From a bacterium BMS3Abin11 (GTDB taxonomy: Bacteria; Pseudomonadota; Gammaproteobacteria; BMS3Bbin11), in NCBI GenBank assembly GCA_002897635.1, contig BDTD01000018.1, positions 62,001-126,000 on the forward strand: DNA of 64,000 nt. Reading direction: 5' to 3'. The position numbers and the translations under genes are program-made. Every line of letters begins with the position of its first letter. The first letter of the stretch is position 1. Of the stretch, positions 47,913 to 58,685 are shown in pieces. The notes beneath the pieces were generated by a model. The model had not been told where the DNA came from and did no database searches. It worked only from the letters and a program-made list of their open reading frames with translations.

Positions 47913-48377
47913 ATGAAAGCCAGGAAAAAAAGATTTATAGTTATACTTGTAGGTTTAGGGGCATTAGGACTCGCTTCCTGGCTGGTTTTTAACGCCCTGG
48001 GAAATAATATGTCGTATTTCTATTCCCCCACTGAGGTGGTGCAGAAAAAAGCGCCCGAAAATCATCTGTTCAGACTGGGAGGTATGGTCGTAAAAGGCAG
48101 TATACAGCGTGGTCAGGAGCTTACAGTGCGCTTTGCCGTCACCGATACTGCGAATGTTGTCAATGTCGAGTACACAGGAATTCTGCCGGATCTGTTTGAT
48201 GAAGAACAGGGTGTCATCGCGCAGGGGAAACTCAATAGCATGGGTGTTTTTATTGCCTCTGAGGTGCTTGCCAAGCATGACGAGAAATATATGCCGCCTG
48301 AAGTCGCGGATGCACTGGAAAAGGCCGGCAATATGAAGACTGACGTGCCAGCTGCGGAGTTGCAAAATGATTCCTGA
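47913..48377 (+). CDS. ccmE: Periplasmic heme chaperone CcmE
   Basis: CcmE carries heme by a covalent bond to a His and passes it to CcmF. The 154 residues have an N-terminal membrane anchor (about 7-28), an OB-fold domain (LGGMVVKGSIQRG), and the heme-binding motif AKHDEKYMPPEV with His122. The end overlaps the ccmF start by 11 bases. Confidence 0.96.
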   Translation: MKARKKRFIVILVGLGALGLASWLVFNALGNNMSYFYSPTEVVQKKAPENHLFRLGGMVVKGSIQRGQELTVRFAVTDTANVVNVEYTGILPDLFDEEQGVIAQGKLNSMGVFIASEVLAKHDEKYMPPEVADALEKAGNMKTDVPAAELQNDS

Positions 48378-50331
48378 AATTGGGCAGTTTGCACTTATCC
48401 TGGGGATGGTGTTTGCACTGGTACAGACGGTTGTTCCACTCGCCGGAGCGCATTTCGGTATTGCCAGTTGGGTGGCTGTGGCAAAACCGGCAGCACGGGT
48501 GCAGTTGTTGTTTGTCGCCATTTCTTTTATCGCGCTGAGCTGGAGTTTTCTGACCCATGACTTTTCGGTCAAATACGTTGCAGTGAATTCCAATACAGCC
48601 TTGCCCACCTTCTATCTGCTTTCGGCCGTATGGGGTGCCCATGAGGGTTCATTAGTGCTCTGGGCACTGGTGCTTTCCCTTTGGACAACCAGTGTTACTG
48701 TGTTCAGCCGCAGCATTCCACCAGTGGTGCTGGCTCGGGTGCTGGGGGTAATGGGCTTTGTCAGTGTCGGTTTTATCCTTTTCATTCTGGTGACCTCCAA
48801 TCCTTTTGAAAGGCTAATACCGGCTGCTATGGAAGGTCGTGATCTGAATCCTCTGCTGCAGGATATCGGTCTGATCTTTCACCCGCCTCTGTTGTACATG
48901 GGCTATGTCGGTTTTGTTGTCCCGTTTTCATTTGCCATTGCCGCCATGTTAGGGGGGCATCTTGATGCCGCATGGGCGCGCTGGTCACGTCCCTGGACCC
49001 ATGTTGCCTGGGTTTTCCTTACCCTCGGTATCCTGCTGGGTTCATGGTGGGCCTATTATGAGCTGGGCTGGGGTGGCTGGTGGTTCTGGGATCCTGTCGA
49101 AAACTCCTCCTTTATACCGTGGCTGGTGGGTACGGCACTGATGCACTCACTTGCAGTGACGGAAAAGCGCGGGACCTTTAAGGCATGGACGGTGTTGCTG
49201 GCAATCTTTACCTTTTCGCTTAGCCTGCTTGGCACCTTTCTGGTTCGATCCGGTGTCCTGACATCGGTGCATGCCTTTGCATCTGATCCCACACGTGGCA
49301 CATTTATTCTCGTCTTTCTCGCTGTGGTCGTTGGCGGTTCGCTTTTAATCTATTCATGGCGTGCCTCGCAAATACGAAGCCATGTCCATTTTGATCTTGT
49401 ATCGCGTGAGACAGGACTTCTGCTGAACAACGTTTTTCTGGTAGTGGCGGCAATCAGCATACTACTTGGTACCCTCTATCCATTAATAGTGGATGCCCTG
49501 GGTATAGGCAAGATTTCAGTTGGCCCACCCTATTTCAATAGTGTATTTCTTCCCCTGATGGTTCCTATGGCAATCTTGCTCGGTATTGGTCCGTTATTGC
49601 GCTGGAAGCGCGATTCATTCAGTCGTATATGGCCAAAGATCTGGCTGATCGCAGTTATTAGCCTGGTTGTTGGGCCACTGATTCCATTGCTGGCAATGGG
49701 TCCCTATGAAATCCGGGCAACTTTCGGCATGATGCTGGCGATATGGGTGCTGGGCGCTACTCTGAAATCACTTTTTGAACAGACCAGGGGACGTGGTTTT
49801 GCTACAGTTTCACGTTCATTCTGGGGCATGATACTAGGACATATTGGTGTTGCAGTATTCATTGTGGGTATTACTCTTACTTCAGTCTATAGCACTGAAA
49901 AAGATCTTCGCCTTGATCCGGGTGATAGTTACGAACTGGCCGGTTTCAAGTTTCGATTCGATGGTACAACGAAGATTATCGGGAAAAATTATAGCGGAAC
50001 AAAGGCCAAGCTGACCGTAACAAAAAACGGTAAGTACATTGCAACTATGGAACCGGAAAAGCGTAATTATCGGGTTCAGAAGCAGCCATTGACCGAAGCG
50101 GCGATTGATGCTGGTCTATTTCGAGACCTGTTTGTTGCCCTTGGTGAACCATTGGGTAGCAAGGGTGCCTGGAGCGTACGTATCTACCACAAACCCTTTC
50201 TTCGCTGGATCTGGCTGGGTGCGCTGATCATGGCTCTGGGGGGGTTATTTGCTGCCAGTGACAGGCGTTACAGAAAACTGGCAGGTCGGGCAAAAAAACA
50301 GCGTGCAGTAACAATTGAGGCGGTATCGTGA
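48367..50331 (+). CDS. ccmF: Cytochrome c heme lyase subunit CcmF
   Basis: CcmF attaches heme to apocytochrome c together with CcmH and CcmI. The 654 residues are mostly membrane helices with a WWD domain, GWGGWWFWDPVENSSFIPWL, preceded by HPPLLYMGYVGF. A C-terminal periplasmic domain (about 500-620) comes before the last helix. It overlaps ccmE at the start and ccmG at the end (GTGA). Confidence 0.96.
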   Translation: MIPEIGQFALILGMVFALVQTVVPLAGAHFGIASWVAVAKPAARVQLLFVAISFIALSWSFLTHDFSVKYVAVNSNTALPTFYLLSAVWGAHEGSLVLWALVLSLWTTSVTVFSRSIPPVVLARVLGVMGFVSVGFILFILVTSNPFERLIPAAMEGRDLNPLLQDIGLIFHPPLLYMGYVGFVVPFSFAIAAMLGGHLDAAWARWSRPWTHVAWVFLTLGILLGSWWAYYELGWGGWWFWDPVENSSFIPWLVGTALMHSLAVTEKRGTFKAWTVLLAIFTFSLSLLGTFLVRSGVLTSVHAFASDPTRGTFILVFLAVVVGGSLLIYSWRASQIRSHVHFDLVSRETGLLLNNVFLVVAAISILLGTLYPLIVDALGIGKISVGPPYFNSVFLPLMVPMAILLGIGPLLRWKRDSFSRIWPKIWLIAVISLVVGPLIPLLAMGPYEIRATFGMMLAIWVLGATLKSLFEQTRGRGFATVSRSFWGMILGHIGVAVFIVGITLTSVYSTEKDLRLDPGDSYELAGFKFRFDGTTKIIGKNYSGTKAKLTVTKNGKYIATMEPEKRNYRVQKQPLTEAAIDAGLFRDLFVALGEPLGSKGAWSVRIYHKPFLRWIWLGALIMALGGLFAASDRRYRKLAGRAKKQRAVTIEAVS

Positions 50332-50861
50332 AACGGTATCTTATTCCCTTTGCGATTTTTGTTGTCCTGGTTGTCTTTCTGGCTATTGGCCTGAAGCTGG
50401 ATCCGACTTATATTCCCTCGCCGTTTATTGGTAAGCCAGCCCCCGAATTTAATTTGCCCGATTTGCACAATCCCGATCAACGCCTCAAGGCCTCAGACTT
50501 GAAGGGCCAGGTGTGGTTGTTGAATGTATGGGCTTCCTGGTGTACAGCCTGTCGCGCTGAGCATCCGGTGATCCAACGTCTGGCCGCAATGAATATTGCT
50601 CCAGTATATGGTTTGAACTACAAGGACAAACCAGAAGATGCCAAAAAATGGCTGCGGGAACTGGGTGATCCTTATAAAGCAAATCTGGTGGACAGGAATG
50701 GTGACGTAGGTATTGACTGGGGGGTTTACGGTGTACCGGAAACCTTCGTCATCGATAAAAAGGGGATTATTCGATACAAGTATATAGGGCCGATAAACAA
50801 TAGGGTTGTCGATGATGAAATTGTGCCCCTGTTGCGGAAATTAAACGCGGAGGCGGGTTAG
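50328..50861 (+). CDS. ccmG: Thiol:disulfide interchange protein CcmG/DsbE
   Basis: CcmG reduces the CXXCH cysteines of apocytochrome c before heme attachment. The 177 residues have an N-terminal membrane anchor (about 4-22) and a thioredoxin fold with the active site WASWCTACRAEH (Cys72, Cys75), followed by VYGVPETFVIDKKG with the cis-Pro. The GTG start overlaps the ccmF stop by four bases. Confidence 0.95.
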   Translation: MKRYLIPFAIFVVLVVFLAIGLKLDPTYIPSPFIGKPAPEFNLPDLHNPDQRLKASDLKGQVWLLNVWASWCTACRAEHPVIQRLAAMNIAPVYGLNYKDKPEDAKKWLRELGDPYKANLVDRNGDVGIDWGVYGVPETFVIDKKGIIRYKYIGPINNRVVDDEIVPLLRKLNAEAG

Positions 50862-50863
50862 AA

Positions 50864-51325
50864 ATGCGCATAAAGAGAGGGTTTGTTCCCATTGTTATGG
50901 TGTTGCTTGTAATTTCATTGCCATCACTAGCCGCTATTGATATCCACCAGTTTGATAGTCCGGAAAAGGAAGCCCTGTACAAGAAGCTGACCGGAGAATT
51001 GCGTTGTACTGTTTGTCAGAATCAGTCCATCGGTGAATCCAATGCTGATTTGGCCAAAGATCTACGGCGAAAAACTTACGAAATGGTTTCTGCGGGGAAA
51101 GACGAACAGTTTGTGCTGGACTTTATGACACAGCGCTTTGGTGATTTCATTCTACTTCGCCCACCTTTCCAGAATAATACCTTAGCGCTCTGGATCGGCC
51201 CATTTATCATATTGATTGTTGCGGTGTTTTTGCTCATCAAGTTTATACGGCGATCTACGAATGATGTTCCCTTAACAGACACAGACAGGGCCCAGGCAGA
51301 ACATTTACTGGAGCGAGACGAATAA
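50864..51325 (+). CDS. ccmH: Cytochrome c maturation protein CcmH (CcmL)
   Basis: CcmH binds apocytochrome c thiols during heme ligation. The 153 residues have a signal peptide (about 1-23), the family motif LRCTVCQNQSIGES (Cys48, Cys51), and a C-terminal membrane anchor (about 105-125). This is the short CcmH form; the TPR part is encoded separately as ccmI, and the genes overlap (TAATG). Confidence 0.95.
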   Translation: MRIKRGFVPIVMVLLVISLPSLAAIDIHQFDSPEKEALYKKLTGELRCTVCQNQSIGESNADLAKDLRRKTYEMVSAGKDEQFVLDFMTQRFGDFILLRPPFQNNTLALWIGPFIILIVAVFLLIKFIRRSTNDVPLTDTDRAQAEHLLERDE

Positions 51326-52581
51326 TGTCATTCTGGATTTTAACGATAAGCATGGTAGCTGCTGGTCTTTTGTTACTTACCCCGGCCATGCTTGGTAGAA
51401 AAACTATAAAGCTGGGTGATGATCGTGAACAAAATATCACAATTGCCAGAGAGCGGATGCAGGAACTGAAGGCCGAGCTGCAAGCCGGAACATTGACTGA
51501 GGACACTTATCAACAGACACTGGAAGAGCTTGAGAAAAGCCTGCTCATTGATGTTGCAGATGTAGAAAGTATATCGGGAAAGACCTCTACTCGATCTACT
51601 GGAATGATGTTGATTGCAGTGCTTGTCATTGTGCCGGTACTGAGTTTTGGTATGTATAACATGCTGGGTTCGCCCCAGTATCTCAATGTTGTCGGGCCGG
51701 CAAAATACCCAGCAACTCCTCCCAGTGTTGCCACTACCAGGGCAGGAGAATTACCTTCAATGGAGGAAATGATCAGCAGTCTGAAAAAGAAAATAGCTGA
51801 GAATCCGAAAGATCCTGATGGCTGGTATTTGCTTGGACGTTTATATGTGGCTAAGGAGCAGTTTTCTGACTCGGTTAAGGCCTATGAAAAACTGGTTGAG
51901 GTCACTGACCGTCAGCCTGCTGCTCTGGTAGTACTGGCAGATTCAATTGCCATGACCCAGGGTGGCGACTTGTCAGGACGTCCTCTACAGTTAATAACAG
52001 AAGCGCTCGAAAAGGAGCCATCAAATTCCACAGCTTTGTGGATAGCAGGGCAGGCGGCAGCCAATAAGAAACAATATATTGAGGCCATTGATTACTGGCA
52101 GCGTGCTGCCCAGGGTTTAAAAGAACACAAAGAGATGTTGGATGAGTTGAGCACAATGATTAGCGAAGCAGTTATTTTAGCGAAAGAAGCTGGCATGGAT
52201 GTCCCTGAGATAACTCTACCGGAACCTCTCTTACCTGCCTCAATTTCCATTGGTGTAACTATTGATCCTTCCTTGCAGGATAAGATTCAGGAAAATGATG
52301 TTCTGTTTATATTTGCCAGAGCAGTTTCCGGCCCACCGATACCGCTGGCTGCGATTAAGCGCAAGGCCAGTGAATTACCGCTGACTATAGTGCTGGATGA
52401 TTCATCTTTACTGCGTCCGGATATCAGCCTGGTGGATTTTAAGGAATTGAAAATTGCTGCACGGATTTCGCATAGTGGACAGCCTGCCGCAGAAAGCGGT
52501 GACCTGCAGAGTCAGCCTCAGCTGGTTAACCCCACATCAAATCCCAGGATTATTCTGAAGATTGATAAGCTAGTGCCCTGA
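51325..52581 (+). CDS. ccmI: Cytochrome c maturation TPR protein CcmI (CycH)
   Basis: CcmI binds the C-terminus of apocytochromes through TPR repeats and presents them to CcmFH. The 418 residues have two N-terminal membrane helices (about 3-20 and 93-112), and a TPR region (about 150-290; NPKDPDGWYLLGRLYVAKEQ, then DYWQRAAQGLKEHKEML). A C-terminal periplasmic domain (PASISIGVTIDPSLQ onwards) follows. It closes the ccmABCDEFGHI operon. Confidence 0.92.
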   Translation: MSFWILTISMVAAGLLLLTPAMLGRKTIKLGDDREQNITIARERMQELKAELQAGTLTEDTYQQTLEELEKSLLIDVADVESISGKTSTRSTGMMLIAVLVIVPVLSFGMYNMLGSPQYLNVVGPAKYPATPPSVATTRAGELPSMEEMISSLKKKIAENPKDPDGWYLLGRLYVAKEQFSDSVKAYEKLVEVTDRQPAALVVLADSIAMTQGGDLSGRPLQLITEALEKEPSNSTALWIAGQAAANKKQYIEAIDYWQRAAQGLKEHKEMLDELSTMISEAVILAKEAGMDVPEITLPEPLLPASISIGVTIDPSLQDKIQENDVLFIFARAVSGPPIPLAAIKRKASELPLTIVLDDSSLLRPDISLVDFKELKIAARISHSGQPAAESGDLQSQPQLVNPTSNPRIILKIDKLVP

Positions 52582-52887: not shown

Positions 52888-53769
52888 ATGAGCGACAACA
52901 ATAAACTTTACCGGTTGGTCTTTACAGGCAATGTACTGCCGGGAAATTCCAAAAAGAAAGTTATCTCTCGTTTGCAGCAGATGCTGCACCTGGACAAGGA
53001 GAAGGCTTCACGTCTTGTTGCAGGAAAGCACAAACAGATCAATAAGAAGTTGACCCTGGACAGGGCAGAGAAACTCAGGCTACTCATTTTGAAACAGGGA
53101 GCTGAATGTGTATTACTGCCTATTGAAGAATCATTTGTATCTACTCAGCAGTTACCCATGTTTATCCGCAATGGGGATAACAGTATTAAGCAGCATAACA
53201 ATCCTCATGAAGGTCAAAGTGCAGGAAAGACAGCTGTTCTCCAGCCATTAGCAAGACAAGCTGACCCACAGGAATCAATTAGTCGAATTAGAAAACGTTC
53301 GATACCGCTTAGTAAAAGTACAAAATTAAAATATTTTTTTTATACTGTTTTTCTTATGATTGTTGAAGCTATTGTGATCTGGAATGTTAAACCTGCGCCA
53401 CAAATATGTGATTGTTCTAAACTTCAGGAAAATATATCATCTGTCACGGATAAAGTTTCCACAGTGGTGCCGCAGAAGGATAGTGTGAAACAGCTATCAC
53501 CTGCTGCGACTAAAACAATGGAGAAACTGAGAAATATATCTGTCCGGACAAGTCTATGGTTTGCTGACCAGAGTAGTGAAATCAATCCTGCTGATGTTAG
53601 CTGGATATGGATACAGGGTGATATTGGAATAAGAGTGCGCGATATGAACGATAGTTGGGGAAATGCAATCAGGTATTTTGGCAAAGAGGACCGCTTTGAA
53701 TTGCGCTCATCTGGACCGGATAAAATATTTTATACTGATGATGATATTTCCAGGGAATTGCTTATCTAG
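52888..53769 (+). CDS. Unknown protein: paralogous N-terminal module, one TM helix, pseudopilin GspG-like C-terminus
   Basis: The 293 residues begin with a module (about 6-80: YRLVFTGNVLPG, ASRLVAGKHKQINKKL, LRLLILKQGAECVLLPIE) shared with the next gene. A membrane helix follows (about 150-168, FFYTVFLMIVEAIVIW). The C-terminal part has DSWGNAIRYFGKEDRFELRS, then SGPDKIFYTDDDI, which matches the calcium-binding end of type II secretion pseudopilin GspG, but no prepilin leader is present. The function is unknown. The TAG stop lies in the CTAG at the edge of a repeat element. Confidence 0.75.
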   Translation: MSDNNKLYRLVFTGNVLPGNSKKKVISRLQQMLHLDKEKASRLVAGKHKQINKKLTLDRAEKLRLLILKQGAECVLLPIEESFVSTQQLPMFIRNGDNSIKQHNNPHEGQSAGKTAVLQPLARQADPQESISRIRKRSIPLSKSTKLKYFFYTVFLMIVEAIVIWNVKPAPQICDCSKLQENISSVTDKVSTVVPQKDSVKQLSPAATKTMEKLRNISVRTSLWFADQSSEINPADVSWIWIQGDIGIRVRDMNDSWGNAIRYFGKEDRFELRSSGPDKIFYTDDDISRELLI

Positions 53770-53985: not shown

Positions 53986-54951
53986 ATGACCAGGCCCATA
54001 CTCGATGATGATCAACAATATCGACTTGTTTTTCCCGGAAATATCCTGCCCGGCACAGACTTCGATGAAGTGGTTTTTGATCTGGCACGTCTTTTGAAAA
54101 CATCACCTGACAGTGCAATAAAACTGGTTTCAGGAAAAAGAAGGCGTGTAAAACTAACTTTTACTTATGAGAAAGCAGGCCGTTTACGGGCACAGGTTCT
54201 TCAATTAGGGGTGGAATGTGAACTTGAGCCTGTTGATGGTAGCAGTAGCACTTCTAAATCTCGAAAAAGTAGGCGCAAGAAACCTTTTCCAGAGCCTGAG
54301 AGCTTTGCCATGCAGCCTGCAAGATCAGACCAGACATCCGATCTGGGAAAGTCATACAGCGAAACAATGGCTGAGTTTCAAAAGCATGCCAGTGCCCACA
54401 GGGTGCAAAAAATAAAGAAGACAGAGCTTGATGAACCGACTCTATCTTTCATTGCTGAGAAGGGCCAGGATAAGATCCAGGATGAGAAAAGTGCTCCCCT
54501 CAAAGTTATAAGGCGACGACAGGCTCTGTTTGTAGGTGAAAATATTGATGATTACCTGGCAAAATTCGAAAAATTCCAGCAGGGCGAGACCCCGCATTTT
54601 GTTTTAATATGGCATTGGCCAGCATTTTTTGTGCCTTTTTTCTGGGCCATCTACAGAAAGCTCTGGGGTTGGTCGATTGTTATGTTTATAAGCTCTATAT
54701 TCTTACCACTACTGTCAAATATACTCTGGGGAACTGTCGCTAATTACATTTACTACCGACATAGTATGCAGAAGATCAAAACAATCCGTAAGCGGTATAG
54801 CTCCGACAAGATTGATGAAAAACTGTCAGAATCCGGGGGTACCAGCAAGCTGGCTTTATCTGCGGCATTACTTTTAATTTTGTTACTAATGAATGGCGTT
54901 TACTGGACGAGTAAATTATCTTCGGTATTTTCAACACCAGGGAGCCCCTGA
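53986..54951 (+). CDS. Unknown membrane protein sharing the N-terminal module of its neighbour
   Basis: The 321 residues open with YRLVFPGNILPGTDFDEVVF, then IKLVSGKRRRVKLTF and LRAQVLQLGVECELEPVD, the same roughly 75-residue module as the preceding gene. A basic linker follows. A DUF2628-like membrane part (about 205-255; LIWHWPAFFVPFFWAIYRKL, then WSIVMFISSIFLPLL) precedes a last helix at about 287-305. AAGGGA precedes ATG 53986. The last codons (Gly-Ser-Pro-stop) lie within the left arm of a perfect hairpin of the repeat family. Confidence 0.75.
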   Translation: MTRPILDDDQQYRLVFPGNILPGTDFDEVVFDLARLLKTSPDSAIKLVSGKRRRVKLTFTYEKAGRLRAQVLQLGVECELEPVDGSSSTSKSRKSRRKKPFPEPESFAMQPARSDQTSDLGKSYSETMAEFQKHASAHRVQKIKKTELDEPTLSFIAEKGQDKIQDEKSAPLKVIRRRQALFVGENIDDYLAKFEKFQQGETPHFVLIWHWPAFFVPFFWAIYRKLWGWSIVMFISSIFLPLLSNILWGTVANYIYYRHSMQKIKTIRKRYSSDKIDEKLSESGGTSKLALSAALLLILLLMNGVYWTSKLSSVFSTPGSP

Positions 54952-55148: not shown

Positions 55149-57056
55149 ATGAAAATATATATTCTACTGCTTTGCACTTTGTTATTACCCGTAACCGCAA
55201 ACGCTTCGACTGATATTCAGCAGTTGTTGCAACTGGTTGATTACATCGGCGTGGATTACTCTGGTGCTGTTAATGATGGTGAGATTACTCATGCAGGGGA
55301 ATATGATGAAATGAGAGATTTTTCCAAAGCCATATTCGAGCAATCACAGTCATTAGCTGCATCGGCACGAAAAGCCGAAATTGTAGAATTATCGCGGCAG
55401 TTGATCATACAGGTAAATACAAAAGGTGAAGCCGCTGATATAAACAGGATATCTGCTGCTATCCGTACCATTCTGATTTCGGCTTATGATGTTGCGGTCA
55501 TTCCGGCACGAGGGCCTGATCTGCAGAGAGCGGAGCAGTTATATGCTAATCTCTGCAGTAGTTGCCATGGAGATTCTGGCATGGGAAATGGCCCTGCAGC
55601 GATCAACATGGACCCCCCGCCTGCCGTATTTACCGATTACAATCGTTATCGTGAACGAACAGTCTACGGCCTCTTTAATACGATAACTCAGGGTGTCACC
55701 GGTACACAGATGAAGGCCTACCCGCAGCTAAGTGATATCGACCGCTGGGGTCTGGCTTTTTTAACCGGTTCTATGGCCCAGACTGACGAATTAGAAAAGC
55801 GGGGTGCGGCTGTGTATGCCAGGGATGGGATAAGTAATATTCCACTGGATCTGGCTAAGCTAACCACGACTACACCAGCACAAATTGAAGCAGGTTACGG
55901 CACCAAGGGGCTGGCTTTAATGGCCTATCTGCGCAGCCGACCGGATGTATTATTTAGTCGCGGTAATGCAGCCTCGCTAGAATTTGCAAAAGAAAAAATG
56001 TCAGAGAGTCTCGATGCCTATCGGGAAAATAAAACAAAGTTGGCATACAAACTTGCCGTGCAGGCCTATCTCGAGGGTTTTGAACTAACTGAAAATGGTC
56101 TCAACGCTATTGATCCCGGACTCCGTGCGTCAATAGAAGGGTCAATGACGGCCTATCGAAACCTGATTCGTGATAGCGTGCCAGCAACTGAACTTGAGGC
56201 AGAAACACTACGCATCCAGATGTTACTGCAAACAGCAGAAGATAAGCTCAACAGGATCCATCTCAGTGGCGGTGCTGCATTCGCCAGCGCCATGGTTATT
56301 CTGTTGCGTGAAGGACTCGAGGCCCTGCTGGTTATTGCTGCACTTGCTGCATTCCTGATCAAAACTGGTCGCCGGGATGCATTAAGATGGTTGTATGGTG
56401 GTGTTTTTGTGGCACTGTCACTGGGCGCGGTTACGTGGTGGGCTTCGACTTATGTAATAGATATTTCCGGTATGCAGCGTGAAATGACAGAGGGTATTGC
56501 TGCTCTGCTAGCGGCGGCTGTACTTTTTTACGTTGGTTTCTGGTTGCACAGTAAGACCGGCGCTATACAGTGGAAGGAATTTATCGAACACAGTATTCAG
56601 AAGGCACTCAATAAGAGTACACTCTGGGGCCTGAGCGGGCTGGCATTTATTGCTGTTTATCGGGAGATACTGGAAACAGTACTATTTTACCAGGCATTGT
56701 GGATTCAGACTGAAAATTCCGGTCAGCACATGATTTTTACCGGCTTCCTTGTTGCCTCTGCCATTCTTGTTGTAGTCGCCTGGATCATCCTGCGTTATTC
56801 TACCCGTCTGCCGTTACGACAATTTTTTGCTGTTACCAGCATTTTCATGTTTCTGATGGCTATTGTATTCGCCGGTAAGGGAATAGCCGCTCTGCAGGAG
56901 GCCGGAAAACTGGCATTGGATCCTGTTAGCTTTCCGACTATAGATTTATTAGGAATCTATCCTAATATTCAGGGGCTGCTGGTACAATTAGCGTTACTGA
57001 CTATTGCAATACTTATGTGGCTTAGGCCGAATGAGAACAAAGTTCAAACAAGTTAG
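55149..57056 (+). CDS. Cytochrome c-FTR1 fusion: iron permease with N-terminal heme c domain
   Basis: The 635 residues have a signal peptide (about 1-19). A helical periplasmic part precedes a cytochrome c domain with LCSSCHGDSGMGNGPAA (CXXCH 136-140) and a candidate Met ligand in GTQMKAYPQL. From about residue 375 an FTR1 permease domain follows, with about seven helices and the two iron-transfer motifs REGLE (387-391) and REILE (505-509). FTR1 proteins import iron across the membrane coupled to Fe(II) oxidation; the heme domain is a likely electron acceptor. A Fur-like box lies upstream. Confidence 0.88.
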   Translation: MKIYILLLCTLLLPVTANASTDIQQLLQLVDYIGVDYSGAVNDGEITHAGEYDEMRDFSKAIFEQSQSLAASARKAEIVELSRQLIIQVNTKGEAADINRISAAIRTILISAYDVAVIPARGPDLQRAEQLYANLCSSCHGDSGMGNGPAAINMDPPPAVFTDYNRYRERTVYGLFNTITQGVTGTQMKAYPQLSDIDRWGLAFLTGSMAQTDELEKRGAAVYARDGISNIPLDLAKLTTTTPAQIEAGYGTKGLALMAYLRSRPDVLFSRGNAASLEFAKEKMSESLDAYRENKTKLAYKLAVQAYLEGFELTENGLNAIDPGLRASIEGSMTAYRNLIRDSVPATELEAETLRIQMLLQTAEDKLNRIHLSGGAAFASAMVILLREGLEALLVIAALAAFLIKTGRRDALRWLYGGVFVALSLGAVTWWASTYVIDISGMQREMTEGIAALLAAAVLFYVGFWLHSKTGAIQWKEFIEHSIQKALNKSTLWGLSGLAFIAVYREILETVLFYQALWIQTENSGQHMIFTGFLVASAILVVVAWIILRYSTRLPLRQFFAVTSIFMFLMAIVFAGKGIAALQEAGKLALDPVSFPTIDLLGIYPNIQGLLVQLALLTIAILMWLRPNENKVQTS

Positions 57057-57122: not shown

Positions 57123-57512
57123 ATGTACGCTTTTTCAACCACTACCAGTAAATCCTATGACGAGGCAGTAGCAGCCGTCACAGATGCTTTACAGGAACAG
57201 GGATTCGGGGTACTGACTGAAATTAACGTCAGTGCTGTTTTAAAAAAGAAACTGGATATAGACAAGCGTCCATACATTATTCTCGGTGCCTGTAACCCGG
57301 TACTGGCTAATCAGGCTATGGAAGCTGAACCCGATATTGGACTTTTGTTACCCTGTAACGTTGTCGTCAGAGAGGAAGAAGATGGCAGCATTACCGTTGC
57401 ATTTATGGATCCATCAGCTGTACTTGCACTGGTCGATAATCCAGCTGTTCCTCCACTTGCAGCCGAGGTGCGCAGCCGTTTGAAAAAAGTTTGTGATGTT
57501 ATGGCATCCTGA
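57123..57512 (+). CDS. DUF302 family protein
   Basis: The 129-residue protein begins YAFSTTTSKSYDEAVAAVTD, and contains GFGVLTEINVSAVLKKKLD, YIILGACNPVLANQAM and LLPCNVVVREEEDG, the standard DUF302 pattern. A Cys lies in each of the last two segments. The family is widespread in sulfur- and metal-associated clusters but its function is not established. AAGGAG precedes ATG 57123. It lies between the iron permease and the cytochrome-DsbC fusion, so probable coexpression. Confidence 0.9.
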   Translation: MYAFSTTTSKSYDEAVAAVTDALQEQGFGVLTEINVSAVLKKKLDIDKRPYIILGACNPVLANQAMEAEPDIGLLLPCNVVVREEEDGSITVAFMDPSAVLALVDNPAVPPLAAEVRSRLKKVCDVMAS

Positions 57513-57551: not shown

Positions 57552-58685
57552 ATGATCCAGAAAGCCTTTTTACTACTTACCATTGCATATTTGTTTGCTC
57601 CCAGTCTGTCATTTGCTTCAGCAAGATGGTATTCAGGCGATCAGGTAACCAGGGGAGCAGGTTTATACGCAAATTACTGTGCTGGATGCCACAAGGCAAA
57701 CGCAGAGGGAACCGAAAACTGGCGTAAAACAGTCAGCAATGGTAAATATCCACCACCGCCACTTAATGGCACAGCGCATGCCTGGCACCATTCAATAAAA
57801 GTTTTGGCTAATACTATCCGGGATGGGGGTATTAAGATTGGTGGTGTCATGCCGGCATTTAAAGACAAACTTGATGCCAGGCAGACACTGGATGTCATCG
57901 CTTTTATCCAGTCTAAATGGGAAGATAAAGTTTATTCGGCGTGGCTGGAACGGAATCCACGTCCACAACAGGAGAAAGTGTCTGCTGAAAAAAATGTAAG
58001 CGACAAAAATACGGACATTGATCCCCGCATAACCAGGCTGCAAGAATTTTTACCTGGCAGAACCATCAGTACGCCTGAAAAAACACCTGTAAACGGAATT
58101 TACCAGGTAAGGGTAGGAAGCAAGTATATCTATGTTACGGAAGATGGAGAGTATGCACTGATTGGTAATCTTCTGGATCTTAAGAATGGCATCAATCTTA
58201 CACAGCGGGCACAGGCCAGAGATAATGTTCCCCTGCTAAAATCATTTCCTGAAAAAGACTTAATTATTTTCACGGCAGAAGGTAAAGAAAAGGCAGCAAT
58301 CAGCGTTTTTTCTGATACCAGTTGTCCCTTTTGCAAGAAATTTCATAAGGAAGTCCCATCATTGCAGAAAGCCGGTGTGAGCGTGCGCTATATTCCCTTT
58401 CCTAGAGGCTTAGATAAAGGTCCAGGATATAAGGATATGCTTTCGGTCTGGTGCTCGGAAGATCGAAACAAGGCAATGAATATCGCATTGGGTGTTAGCA
58501 AGGGTAAGCTCGGAAACGGAAACTGTGGTGCTGACAAGGTTCTTCGTGCAGGTTTTGAGCTGGGTCAGAGGGTTGGTGTGCGTGGAACACCAACAATATA
58601 TTTGCCCGATGGGTCTTCGATAAGCGGGTATGTAGCAGCACAAAAAATTATTGAAAGTCTTACTCAGAAAAAAATTATACAGTAA
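57552..58685 (+). CDS. Cytochrome c-DsbC fusion protein (periplasmic)
   Basis: The 377 residues have a signal peptide (about 1-23), a cytochrome c domain (about 30-125; CAGCH at 43-47, likely Met ligand 100 in GGVMPAFKD) and a linker. A complete DsbC-like part follows: dimerisation domain (about 160-235, IYVTEDGEYALIGNLLDL) and thioredoxin domain with DTSCPFCKKFHKEVP (Cys258, Cys261), the second structural Cys pair (SVWCSEDR, NGNCGADK) and cis-Pro347 in VRGTPTIYLPDG. It is probably a heme-coupled disulfide isomerase or reductase in the periplasm. This fusion is not one I know as standard. Confidence 0.85.
   Translation: MIQKAFLLLTIAYLFAPSLSFASARWYSGDQVTRGAGLYANYCAGCHKANAEGTENWRKTVSNGKYPPPPLNGTAHAWHHSIKVLANTIRDGGIKIGGVMPAFKDKLDARQTLDVIAFIQSKWEDKVYSAWLERNPRPQQEKVSAEKNVSDKNTDIDPRITRLQEFLPGRTISTPEKTPVNGIYQVRVGSKYIYVTEDGEYALIGNLLDLKNGINLTQRAQARDNVPLLKSFPEKDLIIFTAEGKEKAAISVFSDTSCPFCKKFHKEVPSLQKAGVSVRYIPFPRGLDKGPGYKDMLSVWCSEDRNKAMNIALGVSKGKLGNGNCGADKVLRAGFELGQRVGVRGTPTIYLPDGSSISGYVAAQKIIESLTQKKIIQ

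Follow-up and report, generated by a model that had tools for sequence, protein, structure and literature searches.

The window, that is, the whole stretch of 64,000 nucleotides that was analysed, encodes a protein in which a mono-heme cytochrome c domain is joined to an entire DsbC-like disulfide isomerase. Its domains and conserved residues indicate that this fusion is probably an exported, dimeric DsbC-type thiol-disulfide enzyme carrying a class I cytochrome c domain, and our tentative reading, to which we give a probability of about 0.4, is that of a heme-bearing DsbC that acts under stress from copper or other metals and whose heme accepts electrons. No description of the cytochrome c-DsbC combination was found in the literature searched (open-licence papers).

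Domain composition of the cytochrome c-DsbC fusion

The gene is a single uninterrupted open reading frame starting with ATG. The features of the fusion and of two genes upstream are listed below with the evidence for each.

55149..57056, + strand: FTR1-type permease with an N-terminal CxxCH cytochrome c domain (PF03239, PF13442)
57123..57512, + strand: DUF302 gene, 39 bases upstream of the fusion (PF03625, 2.1e-26)
57552..58685, + strand: coding sequence of the fusion, 377 amino acids (open reading frame, Pfam, PDB sequence search)
57552..57623, + strand: N-terminal hydrophobic segment, probable Sec signal peptide, residues 1-24 (sequence)
57624..57956, + strand: class I mono-heme cytochrome c domain, residues 25-135 (PF13442/PF00034, PDB profile search)
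57678..57692, + strand: heme c motif CAGCH, residues 43-47 (C43, C46 and H47 invariant, 35/35 fusions)
57777..57791, + strand: HAWHH motif, residues 76-80, hallmark of this cytochrome family (conservation)
57849..57851, + strand: Met100, probable distal heme ligand (invariant, 35/35)
57957..58025, + strand: variable linker, residues 136-158 (identity comparison within the genus)
58026..58247, + strand: DsbC N-terminal dimerisation domain, residues 159-232 (PF10411)
58248..58682, + strand: DsbC catalytic thioredoxin-fold domain, residues 233-377 (PF13098, DsbC structures)
58323..58334, + strand: CPFC active site, residues 258-261 (both cysteines invariant, 35/35)
58452..58454, + strand: Cys301, first cysteine of the second disulfide (aligns with the cysteine of the DsbC 'WC'; 35/35)
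58524..58526, + strand: Cys325, partner of Cys301 (invariant, 35/35)
58587..58592, + strand: Thr346-Pro347, cis-Pro loop (aligns with the DsbC GTP; invariant, 35/35)

The Pfam search placed Cytochrome_CBB3 (PF13442) at residues 31-119 (1e-10, 42.2 bits against a cut-off of 27), and this model and Cytochrom_C (PF00034) together covered residues 31-123 above their curated cut-offs; DsbC_N (PF10411) at 162-218 (1.6e-15) and Thioredoxin_2 (PF13098) at 242-367 (2e-19) likewise scored above theirs. In the PDB sequence search, residues 173/176-371 aligned with E. coli DsbC 1eej (8e-28) and with 4npb (1.7e-28), and residues 32-124 were matched by cytochrome c552. The 1eej alignment assigned C258/C261 to the DsbC active site, C301 and C325 to the second disulfide and P347 to the cis-Pro. 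The best PDB matches of the fusion were DsbC proteins, the heme-domain profile matched structures of CcoP, cytochrome c552 and cytochrome c6, and no single chain matching both halves was found in the PDB sequence and profile searches. An AlphaFold model computed from two sequences had a mean pLDDT of 34.7.

Among 35 distinct full fusions, C43, C46, His47, Met100, C258, C261, C301, C325 and Pro347 were all invariant, and the HAWHH motif, which stand-alone relatives share, was nearly so (H76 and W78 in 33/35, H79 in 34/35, H80 in 35/35). The linker was 57-78% identical within the genus, versus 84-89% for the cytochrome. Both modules named in the preliminary description, a mono-heme c domain with CAGCH and Met100 and an entire DsbC unit with dimerisation domain, CPFC site, second disulfide and cis-Pro, were thus recovered by the domain search that it had proposed. 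Export, dimerisation and heme loading are what these motifs predict.

The fusion is a conserved gene in three families

Two further genomes of the window's genus (G001 and G005) encode the same architecture at 82-83% identity end to end, and an assembly artefact, frameshift or chimera is ruled out by such end-to-end homologues in independent assemblies. Within the genus, dN/dS lay between 0.09 and 0.17 in the cytochrome, between 0.18 and 0.31 in DsbC_N and between 0.12 and 0.17 in the thioredoxin domain, and both halves of the fusion are therefore under purifying selection.

The genome survey suggested in the preliminary description also found the architecture elsewhere. In a class sample of 369 genomes, fusions occurred in the window's family (f1), in f43 and in f154 only, with homologues of 46% identity in an f43 genome (G295) and of 44% and 39% identity in an f154 genome with two copies (G365). 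Across the 41 genomes of f154, which also make up its whole order, a fusion spanning both domains was detected in 28. In a phylum sample of 398 genomes the fusion was found in the window's own genome only, and none of 72,556 plasmid records covered 80% of the query; the wide genome searches scored only the best few candidates per genome, so that rare cases may be missed.

Repeated change between fused and unfused forms

Trees of the DsbC part were computed in a careful version and in a version of 106 rows; in the larger tree, L160 appears stand-alone only because its contig ends there. The fusions of f1, f43 and f154 all fell into one clade with 100/100 support, and this clade excluded ordinary DsbC, among them the second DsbC that the window's genome encodes (L132) and that of f43 (L094). 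As judged from these trees, the DsbC part of the fusion is a separate DsbC lineage, distinct from the ordinary second DsbC of the same genome. Inside the clade, unfused DsbC proteins were interleaved with the fusions, and grouping all fused DsbC domains as a single clade was rejected (AU p 3e-5). Since the fused DsbC parts do not form one clade and unfused proteins lie among them, gain and/or loss of the heme module has taken place several times; well-supported branches force a minimum of four switches between the fused and unfused states.

The changes can be followed at individual loci. Two genomes of the window's own genus (G004 and G006) encode a stand-alone DsbC, about 61% identical to the window's DsbC part, at the same locus between DUF302 and mtfA. 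In these proteins the signal peptide directly precedes the equivalent of fusion residue 157, and in the alignment the cytochrome is inserted exactly between signal peptide and mature DsbC. In f154, the dsbC gene flanked by rarA/methyltransferase and sdhCDAB lacks the cytochrome in most genomes and carries it in five (G365, G379, G380, G381 and G382). Gain and loss of the heme module look alike in these comparisons, the changes having occurred at the same chromosomal positions, in the window's genus as well. For the cytochrome domain, the tree was based on too few columns to show where the heme domain came from. The stand-alone relatives of this domain, which are 48-59% identical and share HAWHH and GGxMP, suggest that it was recruited from a cytochrome family of copper-resistance operons.

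Related domain combinations were also found. Seven f154 proteins consist of cytochrome c and DsbC_N without a thiol domain (L047:7080-7760, L108, L109, L110, L099, L102 and L113), and three have the order cytochrome-DsbC_N-DsbC_N-thioredoxin (L131:1-1233, L096:6866-8248 and L097:5270-6697), that of L131 lacking both active-site cysteines, with SVSS in place of CXXC. In such proteins DsbC_N may serve to dimerise a cytochrome, possibly with free DsbC. Several of the genes for cytochrome c and DsbC_N only adjoin two DUF1538 genes, a PII-like gene and CBS-domain genes and lie opposite gcvTHP. Related cytochrome c domains with an N-terminal extension are encoded near copper genes or small cytochromes at L056:8412-9290, L100:5660-6466 and L083:1144-1956, the first of which has a weak BNR/Asp-box match.

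Gene neighbourhood of the fusion

The neighbours reported in the preliminary description, the DUF302 gene and the FTR1 permease with a CxxCH domain of its own, were confirmed with Pfam, and ccmF/G/H/I-type genes lie at 48367-52581, with ccmG separately at 50328-50861; mtfA follows the fusion downstream. Having ccm and DUF302 nearby does not set the fusion apart, as in G004 the same slot, ccm-DUF302-DsbC-MtfA, is filled by a stand-alone DsbC. The FTR1 permease stands upstream of DUF302 and the fusion in the window's own genome (G000) and in G001, and not in G005 or G004; as an obligate partner it was rejected, because G005 carries the fusion without it.

In f1 and in two f154 genomes the fusion has DUF302 as its direct neighbour; in f43 a DUF302-like match (sequence match only) lies within 5 kb of the fusion, and DUF302 was also located near the stand-alone cytochrome in three copper islands (L049, L050 and L060). 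The DUF302 proteins beside two divergent f154 cytochrome c-DsbC fusions (L127:1939-2433 and L124:1468-1962) have an N-terminal hydrophobic segment, unlike that of the window. Elsewhere in the window, two adjacent genes (52888-53769 and 53986-54951) share the N-terminal segment YRLVFxGNxLPG...KLxLxxAxxLRxxxLxxGxEC, for which no Pfam match was found. In another part of the same genome there is a dense cluster of multiheme cytochrome c genes with up to 11 CxxCH motifs (L261-L262, G000:C6:60001-100000).

Association with copper-resistance genes

A canonical copper gene, defined as multicopper oxidase, Cu-ATPase, DUF411 or CopB, was present within 5 kb at 10 of 26 fusion loci versus none of 32 stand-alone DsbC loci (Fisher p 1e-4, which is optimistic since the fusion loci have a common origin). 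With the copies of the window's genus and of the sdh locus set aside, such a gene was found at 10 of 19 fusion loci, and a small second cytochrome c gene at 15 of the same 19, directly adjoining the fusion in most maps. The neighbours, checked with Pfam and NCBIfam, comprised copper ATPase, CopA-like oxidase, DUF411 and CopB. Copper-resistance genes thus surround the fusion in f43 and at about half of the non-sdh loci of f154; they do not at the window's own locus, and in the window's genus the fusion gene, between DUF302 and mtfA, is not beside copper genes. The five fusions at the housekeeping dsbC locus beside sdhCDAB also have no copper genes.

The stand-alone relatives of the heme domain showed a similar association, lying near copper genes at 13 of 26 loci in many families. 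The window's genome has a copper island elsewhere (L222, G000:C36) with CopB, CopA oxidase, DUF411, Cu-ATPase and MerR, which also encodes a small cytochrome c resembling the one beside f154 fusions. Within the genus, G000 and G001 were the only genomes in which a multicopper oxidase was found; in f154 genomes this gene occurs irrespective of the fusion (in about 19 of 28 that have the fusion and in 8 of 13 that do not).

Possible function and alternative explanations

Copper generates non-native disulfides, against which isomerases such as DsbC defend (PMC5403849, citing Hiniker 2005), and ScsC, a thioredoxin-fold isomerase with a part in copper resistance, has subpicomolar affinity for Cu(I) (PMC8900818). 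In the reading preferred here, the fusion would shield the cell envelope against stress from copper or other redox metals. Its DsbC half would be recharged by DsbD and would repair metal-induced wrong disulfides and/or hold Cu(I) on its CXXC, and the heme half would take single electrons from Cu(I) or the dithiol and pass them to the respiratory chain. A full-length DsbD is encoded in the window's genome (L225:7552-9918), so the normal reductant of DsbC exists there; the genome also has a cbb3-like oxidase, recognised by motif only.

DsbC-type thiols lie near -0.13 V and His/Met cytochromes c usually at +0.2 to +0.35 V. Because of this difference, electrons would run from the dithiol or Cu(I) to the heme and hardly in reverse. 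Heme-driven reduction of the thiol site, one of the two directions offered in the preliminary description, is accordingly unlikely on thermodynamic grounds if the cytochrome c is of the His/Met class I type, and DsbD is available as the DsbC reductant. The electron exchange with the respiratory chain suggested in that description is plausible; exchange between thiols and heme, its direction and, in the window's own genus, a copper role are our inferences. A more specific version, in which the dithiol or bound Cu(I) gives electrons singly to the heme of the same chain, coupling thiol redox, copper oxidation and electron transport, with the heme as a plug-in repeatedly added and removed, is possible but doubtful. 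Against the preferred reading stand the dispensability of the heme half at several loci, the positions away from copper genes in the window's own genus and beside sdhCDAB, and the occurrence of multicopper oxidase in f154 irrespective of the fusion.

The leading alternative is a mere tether with no electron flow between the domains. In it, the heme domain would be a separate electron carrier, for example as a partner of Cu(I) or of an oxidase, and DsbC would provide a dimerisation module and an isomerase for neighbouring envelope proteins. We regard this as a tenable minority view: it agrees with the seven cytochrome c-DsbC_N proteins that have no thiol domain, with the SVSS protein of L131, with a linker variable in both length and sequence and with the forced changes between fused and unfused forms, but in ordinary fusions the active-site cysteines and heme ligands are kept in 35/35, and the fusion recurs in the same order. 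The fusion might instead replace DsbB as a thiol oxidase, the heme oxidising the DsbC thiols, which would re-oxidise DsbA, and electrons passing to cytochrome oxidase. The window's genome, 99.9% complete, encodes a DsbA-like CPHC protein (L263:16583-17248) besides DsbD, and DsbB (PF02600) and VKOR (PF07884) were not found in it; the other two fusion genomes of the genus are also without DsbB, which G006, with the stand-alone form, possesses; and HP0231 of H. pylori is a DsbC/DsbG-like dimer acting as an oxidase (PMC4597128, PMC5403849). As a general role this is nevertheless not supported by co-occurrence, since the majority of f154 genomes carry DsbB alongside the fusion. Moreover, G002, G007 and two f43 genomes have neither DsbB nor the fusion, and G380 (96% complete), whose single detected DsbC is the fused copy, has both DsbB and DsbD; we consider replacement of DsbB improbable.

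Comparably improbable is a role in the handling of sulfur compounds, shared with DUF302 and the Sox system. In sulfur oxidisers a DUF302 gene is located between soxA and soxB, with a speculated role in trithionate oxidation (PMC5037610), DUF302 adjoins the fusions of f1 and f154 named above, and the window's genome encodes a SoxY with a GGCGG end; however, no sulfur genes were noticed beside the fusion loci examined, and DUF302 also occurs in the copper islands with the stand-alone cytochrome. Self-assisted cytochrome maturation, in which the DsbC domain would keep the CXXCH cysteines of its own or a neighbouring apocytochrome reduced for heme attachment, appears very unlikely. The window's locus is 5 kb from ccmFGHI and beside another c-type protein, and system I needs CcmG/DsbE-type reductants (PMC4460558), but a ccmG is already at the locus, the fusions of other families were not seen near ccm, and closely related stand-alone cytochromes have no such domain.

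Comparison with known systems and significance

Like E. coli DsbC (1eej, NF008129), the fusion has DsbC_N and a thioredoxin-fold domain with CXXC, second disulfide and cis-Pro GTP; it differs in its N-terminal heme c domain, in usually having CP(Y/F)C instead of CGYC and in belonging to a separate sequence lineage. Against the DsbC equivalog model NF008129 (cut-off 215) it scored 120.3 bits, and the ordinary DsbC of its own genome, at 176.1, was also below. ScsC (PMC8900818, PMC5524982), which binds Cu(I), is similar as a thioredoxin-fold disulfide isomerase type linked to copper resistance but has an alpha-helical trimerisation domain and neither DsbC_N nor heme; an assignment of the fusion as ScsC was rejected, its N-terminal half being cytochrome c plus DsbC_N and its best PDB matches DsbC. 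HP0231/DsbK of H. pylori (PMC4597128) resembles it as a dimeric DsbC/G-like enzyme type in an atypical Dsb pathway, whereas it has no heme and acts as an oxidase with a membrane partner. DsbE/CcmG and ResA are also thioredoxin-fold thiol enzymes, ones that work on c-type cytochromes, but they are separate proteins of a different subfamily. The small stand-alone class I cytochromes c of copper operons share the CXXCH, HAWHH and GGxMP motifs at the identities given above, and unlike the fusion they carry no thiol domain.

What is new here is that, outside the window's own genus, many fusions are part of copper-resistance islands and often have a second small cytochrome c as neighbour; the heme domain is also closest to the stand-alone cytochromes of copper operons, and DUF302 is a recurrent neighbour. 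Neither this copper context nor the repeated gain or loss of the heme domain is visible in the window alone.

To our knowledge, the DsbC proteins described so far cycle through thiol exchange with DsbD alone. The heme has been kept with all its ligands across most of one bacterial order and also occurs in two further families, and closely related natural proteins that differ in having or lacking the heme, encoded at one and the same chromosomal position, are a ready-made control. If the proposed reading is true, the fusion would connect disulfide repair directly to electron transport through cytochromes, and would be an added player in copper defence.
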